From Solirubrobacteraceae bacterium (GTDB taxonomy: Bacteria; Actinomycetota; Thermoleophilia; Solirubrobacterales; Solirubrobacteraceae), in assembly GCA_025451035.1 (NCBI GenBank), contig JANWLE010000015.1:1-64000 (forward strand): a stretch of 64,000 nt of DNA, in the 5' to 3' direction. Under the pieces are notes generated by a model. The model was not told the DNA's origin. It made no database searches and was given only the letters and a program-made list of their open reading frames with translations. The translations under genes were made by a program, and so were the position numbers. Shown here piece after piece: positions 56,533 to 58,280 of this stretch. The stretch's first letter is position 1. Every line of letters starts with the position of its first letter.

Positions 56533-56808
56533 TCAGCCGCCCGCGACGGCCGGCAGGATCGTCAGCTCGGCGCCGTCATTGACCTCGGTGTCCAGGCCAT
56601 CCAAAAAGCGGATGTCCTCGCCCGAGACGTAGATGTTCACGAAGCGCCGCAGCGACCCGTCTTCGTCGGATATGCGTTCGCGCAGCTCTCCGAAGCGGTC
56701 GTACAGGCTGTCGAGGACCTCCTTGACAGTGGCGCCGTCGACCTGGGTCTCCGACGCCCCGTCGGCGGCCCCACGCAGCTGCGTGGGGATCTTCACCGTG
56801 ACCGCCAC
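56533..56808 (-). CDS. MoaD/ThiS-family ubiquitin-like sulfur carrier protein (C-terminal GG)
   Basis: VTVKIPTQLRGAADGASETQVDGATVKEVLDSLYDRFGELRERI...VNIYVSGEDIRFLDGLDTEVNDGAELTILPAVAGG; stops 2 nt after thrC. Confidence 0.9.
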   Translation of the reverse strand: MAVTVKIPTQLRGAADGASETQVDGATVKEVLDSLYDRFGELRERISDEDGSLRRFVNIYVSGEDIRFLDGLDTEVNDGAELTILPAVAGG

Positions 56809-56810
56809 CG

Positions 56811-58091
56811 TCAGCTCCCCGTGCCCGCGAACGCCGGGATGCGCTCCACATGCGTCTGGAACTGCTCGACGGTGGGGTCAATCTCGCTGTATTCGAATGT
56901 GCCTCTGACGGCGTCGAGTGTCTTTAGCCCCTCGCCGGTTATCACCAGCACCACCCGCTCGGACGGGTCGATGTCGCCGCGGGCAGCGAGCTTCGCGAGC
57001 ACCGCGGTCGTCACGCCGCCCGCAGTCTCGGTGAAGACGCCGGTAGTCTGCGCCAACAGCGCGATCCCGGCCCGGATCTCGTCGTCTGAGACAGCGTCGA
57101 TCGAGCCGCCTGAGCAGCGCGCCTCCTCGAGCGCGTACGGGCCATCGGCGGGATTGCCGATCGCGAGTGACTTCGCGATCGTGTCGGGCTTCACAGGCCT
57201 GCAGACCTCGTGACCGGAGGCGAAGGCGTTCGCGACAGGCGAGCAGCCCTGCGCCTGCGCCCCGTTCATCGTCGGCAGCTCGCCGTCGACGAGACCCAAA
57301 TCGCGCCACTCGGCGAAGCCCTTGGCGATCTTCGTGAACAGCGACCCGGAGGCGATCGGCACCACGCAACGGTCGGGCAGCTCAAAACCGAGCTGCTCTG
57401 AGATCTCATACGCGAGCGTCTTGGACCCCTCGGCGTAGTAGGGGCGCAGGTTGACGTTCACGAACGCCCAGTCACGTTCGGCTGACAGCTCGGTGCACAG
57501 CCGGTTGACGTCGTCGTAGTTGCCCTTCACGGCTACGAGCTTGGTCCCGTAGACGCCCGTGGCGAGCACCTTCTGCTCCTCCAGGTCCGCGGGAATGAAG
57601 ACATAGGAGTCGAGGCCCAAGGCGGCGGCGTGGGCGGCGACCGAGTTGGCGAGATTGCCGGTCGAGGCGCACGCGATCACCTGGAAGCCGAGCTCGCGCG
57701 CCCGCGCGGCCGCGACCGAGACCACCCGGTCCTTGAAAGAGTGGGTTGGGTTCGCCGCGTCGTTCTTGACCCAGACCTCGCGCAACCCCAGCCGCTTGGC
57801 GAGGCGGTCTGCGCGGATCAGCGGCGTGCAGCCAGCGGGAAGCCCCGTGCGCGAGGCCAAACGGCCGGATGGCCCGGGGGGACCATCCACCAGTGGCAGG
57901 AAGTCGGCGTAGCGCCAAATGTTCTGAGGGCCTCCCTGGATGCGCCGGCGCAGCTCGTTGACGCCGCCCTCAACCAGACGGCTGTGATCGTAGATCACCT
58001 CCAGCGGCCCGAAGCAGCGCTCGCAGACATACAGGGCATCCAACGGATACTGCGCCTTGCACTCTCGACACTGTAGGTTGCTAACAGCCAT
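56811..58091 (-). CDS. thrC: Threonine synthase-like PLP enzyme with N-terminal zinc ribbon
   Basis: LQCRECKAQYPLDALYVCERCFGPLEV, PTHSFKDRVVSVAAARARELG, ACASTGNLANSVAAHAAA; start 58091 with SD AGGAG. Confidence 0.9.
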   Translation of the reverse strand: MAVSNLQCRECKAQYPLDALYVCERCFGPLEVIYDHSRLVEGGVNELRRRIQGGPQNIWRYADFLPLVDGPPGPSGRLASRTGLPAGCTPLIRADRLAKRLGLREVWVKNDAANPTHSFKDRVVSVAAARARELGFQVIACASTGNLANSVAAHAAALGLDSYVFIPADLEEQKVLATGVYGTKLVAVKGNYDDVNRLCTELSAERDWAFVNVNLRPYYAEGSKTLAYEISEQLGFELPDRCVVPIASGSLFTKIAKGFAEWRDLGLVDGELPTMNGAQAQGCSPVANAFASGHEVCRPVKPDTIAKSLAIGNPADGPYALEEARCSGGSIDAVSDDEIRAGIALLAQTTGVFTETAGGVTTAVLAKLAARGDIDPSERVVLVITGEGLKTLDAVRGTFEYSEIDPTVEQFQTHVERIPAFAGTGS

Positions 58092-58149
58092 CTCGCGACT
58101 CCTTTTGCCCTTCGCCGGTTTCCCGTGTGGCGCTGAGCGTAAAGTCGCC

Positions 58150-58239
58150 ACACATCTGTCTGGAATTGGCACCTTCCCGCTGGGACGCGGTGGTTGCCGG
58201 GGCTTCGTAGGGCCAGTCCCTCCACCCCTCTTGATGTGT
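58150..58239 (-). ncRNA. SAM-I (S-box) riboswitch aptamer upstream of thrC-like gene
   Basis: Minus strand ACACATCAAGAGGGGTGGAGGGACTGGCCCTACGAAGCCCCGGCAACCACCGCGTCCCAGCGGGAAGGTGCCAATTCCAGACAGATGTGT; matches the conserved S-box core, with a perfect 7-bp P1 (ACACATC/GATGTGT). Confidence 0.92.
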
Positions 58240-58252
58240 CCTACTGGCGGGC

Positions 58253-58280
58253 ATTATAGCGACGGTCTTGGTCAGCGCAA
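58253..58280 (-). promoter_or_regulatory. Sigma70/SigA-type promoter for the riboswitch-thrC-moaD transcript (TTGCGC-16 nt-TATAAT)
   Basis: Perfect -10 TATAAT at 58253-58258 and TTGCGC at 58275-58280, just upstream of the aptamer 5' end. Confidence 0.75.

Follow-up and report, generated by a model that had tools for sequence, protein, structure and literature searches.

Within the window, that is, the whole stretch of 64,000 nucleotides analysed here, the minus strand carries a SAM-I (S-box) riboswitch aptamer followed by a metM-like and a metO-like gene, whose positions are gathered in Table 1 with those of the signals around them. The near-canonical S-box that the first-pass annotation had recognized upstream of a ThrC-like PLP enzyme is borne out by the covariance model RF00162, matched over its full length (model positions 1-108) with 78 bits and an E-value of 1.2e-16, the gathering score being 44.4 bits; a genome-wide search finds this aptamer of metM to be the only S-box of the host genome. 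Two further observations of that annotation agree with the coordinates, namely the gap of 2 nt between the stop codon of the ThrC-like gene and the start of the MoaD/ThiS-like reading frame, and the free GG tail of the MoaD-like protein, the 91-aa product ending in AVAGG. The end of the aptamer lies 57 nt from the start codon of metM, and immediately 5′ of the aptamer a possible promoter can be read by hand, with a TTGCGC (58275-58280) and a TATAAT (58253-58258) separated by a spacer of 16 nt; a consensus scan of the window for sigma-70 promoters and terminators made no call, this TATAAT included. The metM-metO operon is very probably functional.

Table 1. Features of the riboswitch-metM-metO locus (positions in the window)
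Feature	Position	Strand	Basis
SAM-I (S-box) riboswitch aptamer	58149-58240	minus	Rfam RF00162 covariance match
metM-like gene, 426 aa from ATG	56811-58091	minus	Pfam PALP, TIGR00260
metO-like gene, GTG start, 91 aa, C-terminal AVAGG	56533-56808	minus	NF041918, ThiS
Candidate promoter TTGCGC-16 nt-TATAAT	58253-58280	minus	read by hand; weak
Probable expression platform	58092-58153	minus	folds and 20-sequence comparison; modest support
SD AGGAG of metM	58099-58103	minus	read from sequence

Downstream of the aptamer, the P1 3′ strand or anti-sequestor GUGUGGCG (58146-58153) can pair with CGCCACAC (58125-58132), the partner of CGCCACAC in the window's clade being the P1 3′ strand plus GGCG, and in a competing helix the SD sequestor GCGACUUU (58141-58148) pairs with AAAGGAGUCGC (58095-58105), leaving the SD hidden. 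Among 20 relatives, 98.1% of the cells of the anti-sequestor helix are paired and mostly invariant, and a second hairpin (stem B, of the CUUCGCC/GGCGAAG type) is paired in 93.4%, with one doubly changed pair. Other clades have, instead of the SD sequestor, a hairpin and then a U run, terminator-like in appearance. The two competing folds of the window are about 5 kcal/mol apart, the P1-closed state being favoured, and the access to the SD predicted by equilibrium folding is unchanged between them. All this could correspond to an SD-sequestering platform governed by competition between P1 and the anti-sequestor, a mechanism that we infer tentatively, because the equilibrium fold alone shows no switching in the window. 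The leader of metM-metO would bind SAM and shut off the two genes in a SAM-dependent manner.

The metM product matches Pfam PALP (242.6 bits) and TIGR00260 (271.6 bits, above the cut-off), carries an N-terminal Cys4 segment resembling a zinc ribbon, and has in common with canonical ThrC the fold type II of PLP enzymes, the SFKDR lysine motif and the ASTGN motif. At 38 positions, active-site ones among them, the 93 MetM and 17 ThrC sequences compared each have a near-fixed residue, and the two residues differ. The Schiff-base lysine is retained (K120, Thermus K61); T88, S155, R160 and Q164 of Thermus become L147, N214, Y219 and S223 in MetM, and the PLP-phosphate loop GNAG of ThrC becomes ASGS, with the L, N, Y and ASGS that replace T88, S155, R160 and the GNAGN loop present in 97-100% of the 93 MetM. 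Several of the replaced residues are, we assume, those that contact the substrate phosphate, which in ThrC presumably helps the addition of water, and the loss of such phosphate-holding residues would suit a sulfur nucleophile. The phylogenetic tree, drawn from 63 proteins, lacks the MetM of S. albulus, and its MetM of other Actinomycetota are S-box/metO-linked homologues. These fall together with the MetM of Solirubrobacterales (SH-aLRT 80); a separate group is made up of ThrC, solved structures included (SH-aLRT 89), and a third ThrC-like paralogue stands in a group of its own (SH-aLRT 100).

The enzyme could also be read as an ordinary threonine synthase put under SAM control as a Thr/Met branch switch, the MoaD-like protein being kept for other sulfur needs, given that threonine-synthase models are matched above the TIGR00260 cut-off and the same substrate is expected. 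However, such a role is very improbable, firstly, because of the replacement of residues invariant in ThrC, secondly, because a canonical ThrC is already encoded on contig C12, within lysA-hom-thrC-thrB, and finally, because the genome would then have no homocysteine synthase that the searches detected. The identity of the window's enzyme as ordinary ThrC was rejected on these replaced signatures, on its separate phylogenetic group and on the second thrC.

The genome holds three relatives of ThrC, namely the MetM of the window, the canonical enzyme on C12 and the third paralogue on C95. The latter (L021:5537-6856) has a zinc-ribbon-like N-terminus and an AAGGT loop, adjoins genes resembling HpnH/HpnG of the hopanoid cluster, and is found in a minority of Solirubrobacterales genomes. 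No enzyme of the PP family (PF01053; MetB/MetC/MetY/MetZ) was found in the host genome by profile search, its weak PF01053 matches being other PLP-enzyme genes, BioF included, nor was MetX found in a search of the contigs; this search for homocysteine enzymes took in PF01053 and MetX. Since the assembly is about 94% complete and divided into 122 contigs, single absences could be gaps. The first-pass annotation had named as places to look for its reading the genes metB, metY/metZ and metX, a second thrC, and a MoeB-like enzyme with a JAMM protease, and the genome answers in its favour on each; the last two proteins are both encoded elsewhere, on contig C19. There, a JAMM-CysM pair is found with a second SAMP1-like MoaD adjoining an E1 of MoeB plus rhodanese type, and with Suf genes, identified by eye through the succession of the reading frames; MetH lies at C17:31373. 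As the supply of O-phosphohomoserine, the activation of the carrier and MetH are all present, the missing homocysteine step would fall to metM-metO, apparently the only homocysteine route of this genome, no alternative having been found with PF01053 and MetX.

The metO product scores 74.5 bits with the SAMP1 model NF041918 (above the cut-off) and 53.6 bits with Pfam ThiS, and its relatives in the PDB are 4n6e (ThiS/MoaD family) and 3dwg/3dwm (M. tuberculosis CFP-10A). This similarity to SAMP1 and to CFP-10A would be in accordance with a protein devoted to CysO/CysM-type cysteine synthesis or to SAMP conjugation, the pair forming a sulfur-homeostasis operon, and the CysO-CysM-Mec system of mycobacteria does resemble the present one in joining a GG carrier to a fold-II PLP enzyme, an E1 and a JAMM protein. 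The mycobacterial system, however, yields cysteine, and its likely counterpart is the separate set on C19, where CysM, JAMM and MoeB have a MoaD of their own, for which the CysO-CysM identity of the window's pair was rejected; moreover, the linkage to metM and the S-box indicate methionine, so that a function in cysteine synthesis or conjugation is very unlikely for MetO. A further MoaD/SAMP1-like GG protein is encoded on C41 (L026:1471-1731), adjoining a protein with BNR/sortilin-like repeats.

It is thus with considerable confidence that the metM-metO operon, under its SAM-I riboswitch, is proposed to make homocysteine from O-phosphohomoserine and the thiocarboxylate of MetO. The C-terminal GG of MetO would be activated by the MoeB-type E1 with rhodanese domain encoded on C19 and converted to a thiocarboxylate; MetM would then replace the phosphate of O-phosphohomoserine with the sulfur borne by MetO, and the resulting homocysteine would be methylated by MetH to methionine. 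With SAM in abundance, the aptamer would close and the operon would be turned off, leaving O-phosphohomoserine to the true ThrC for threonine. The anatomy of the locus, the riboswitch match, the gene content, the phylogeny, the residue replacements and the conservation were obtained here; we infer SAM binding, the switching and the chemistry, the last by comparison with the enzymes described in Streptomyces, of which MetO is said to act as the thiocarboxylate sulfur donor. The idea of homocysteine made from O-phosphohomoserine, already advanced by the first-pass annotation, thus finds support in the MetM/MetO precedent, the gene content and the conservation, as a reading by analogy and one already published.

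In that precedent, MetM of Streptomyces is a homocysteine synthase using O-phosphohomoserine (Hasebe et al., 2024, AEM 90:e01247-24, cited in PMC12172450), and in S. albulus a SAM riboswitch lies upstream of metM, metO being the sulfur-carrier gene, according to the same source (PMC12172450). The likeness extends to a ThrC-related enzyme, an adjacent MoaD-like carrier, a SAM riboswitch and the lack of canonical homocysteine genes. The differences are that the host belongs here to the Solirubrobacterales, that in some relatives metH is also under S-boxes, that the platform varies between an SD sequestor and a U-run terminator, and that MetO is capped in some relatives. Microcystis has a ThrC 51.6% identical to S. 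albulus MetM and with an adjacent metO-like gene, without a SAM riboswitch and with reported threonine deaminase activity (PMC12172450); it shares the metO neighbour with the MetM of the window, to which the latter adds the SAM riboswitch.

The arrangement recurs throughout the order, as the first-pass annotation had thought worth counting. Among 101 Solirubrobacterales genomes, 95 have a metM orthologue, in all 95 with an aptamer 48-157 nt upstream, and a MoaD gene adjoins metM, or is fused to it, in 73 of the 79 loci with downstream sequence; with such figures the aptamer-metM-metO layout is not due to chance. In one record (L093), MetM and MetO lie in a single frame of about 511 aa, either a fusion or a sequencing frameshift, and in its close relatives metM and metO overlap as ATGA. 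Aptamer and metM are present in every one of the 46 genomes that lack a PP-family enzyme, and each of the six genomes that lack a metM orthologue has an enzyme of that family. The MetM/MetO route is not exclusive everywhere, because 55 of the 101 genomes also have a PP-family enzyme, about 28 of them with metY-metX-like pairs; MetX is confined to genomes bearing the PP family (29, of which 28 with strong matches, mostly adjacent to the PP-family gene). Additional S-boxes are found directly upstream of metH in G007, G011, G023, G026, G029, G038, G050, G089 and G100, relatives from one family of Solirubrobacterales. Beyond the order, MetM is found at E<=1e-110 in 109 of 298 Actinomycetota genomes, the MetM proteins of some other actinobacterial genomes being 54-56% identical and having the same layout; in 16 loci outside the order, a Nonomuraea record included, the S-box is present in 15 and metO in 14. 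Four records with metM of Solirubrobacterales type (L043, L078, L085, L107) are titled Chlamydiae or Bifidobacterium breve, probably wrongly.

These numbers also bear on whether MetM could take free sulfide, MetO being auxiliary or belonging to another pathway. Six of the 79 loci (L044, L045, L049, L056, L059, L094) have metM and the S-box without a neighbouring metO, which would favour it, though a MoaD remains beside an E1-like gene elsewhere in these genomes, and therefore one carrier may serve two pathways. The adjacency of metO to metM in the other loci of the order and in most of those elsewhere in the phylum, the GG motif in nearly all metO, and the published donor role of MetO, as it is reported, make free sulfide unlikely, and MetO is retained as the sulfur donor of the proposed route.

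The MetO of the window is uncapped and ends in GG. By contrast, when the complete MetO genes are compared, about 106 distinct ones in all (L194 and L212 being counted as one), 16 have a short cap after the GG, of one residue in 12 genes (L050, L061, L066, L072, L078, L102, L105, L108, L110, L173, L204, L210), of two in three (L176, L177, L194) and of six in one (L207); the single residue is C in five, R in three, S in two and A in two. On the MetM tree, no fewer than 12 changes are required to account for the trait. Since in none of the 95 MetO genes that end in GG is the stop codon immediately followed by another, exact one-residue caps are unlikely to have arisen by chance loss of the stop. 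A capped carrier would not be adenylatable until trimmed, which would point to maturation by a JAMM protease. It is about as likely as not that many lineages of Actinomycetota make MetO as a capped precursor, requiring JAMM trimming for homocysteine synthesis; if true, homocysteine synthesis in those lineages would depend on proteolysis of the carrier. The GG-Cys end of some capped MetO resembles the CysO-Cys adduct cleaved by Mec, and the capped forms in general resemble HcyS of Wolinella, with its one residue after GG.

In Wolinella, a protein thiocarboxylate, on a carrier with one residue after the GG, reportedly donates the sulfur for homocysteine, protease trimming is said to have been proposed for HcyS-Ala, and the route is said to use O-acetylhomoserine and MetY, of the PP family. 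The present system differs from it in having a ThrC-fold enzyme and, presumably, O-phosphohomoserine; a Wolinella-type route was rejected for the host genome, which has neither a PP-family enzyme nor MetX in the searches made. This HcyS/HcyD/HcyF/MetY thiocarboxylate route to methionine is that of Krishnamoorthy and Begley (2011, cited in PMC5764234). Operons of MoaD, E1, JAMM and cysteine synthase were described by Iyer et al. (2006), where threonine synthase is not mentioned (PMC1779556), and a literature search for SAM riboswitch, threonine synthase and MoaD together found no report.

In summary, the principle of a SAM-controlled MetM/MetO is already known from Streptomyces since 2024, and what is new, by computation, is the gene content of the host genome, the order-wide conservation, the grouping of MetM and the residue replacements, to which the capped MetO genes are possibly to be added. 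The metM-like genes are annotated as "threonine synthase", and the genomes that carry them seem methionine auxotrophs in automatic reconstructions; the ASGS loop, L147, N214 and Y219 provide sequence signatures for the re-annotation of MetM. The Streptomyces discovery is thereby extended to a large and poorly cultured order of soil bacteria, the Solirubrobacterales, in which MetM/MetO is nearly universal and, in nearly half of the genomes, the sole homocysteine route found.
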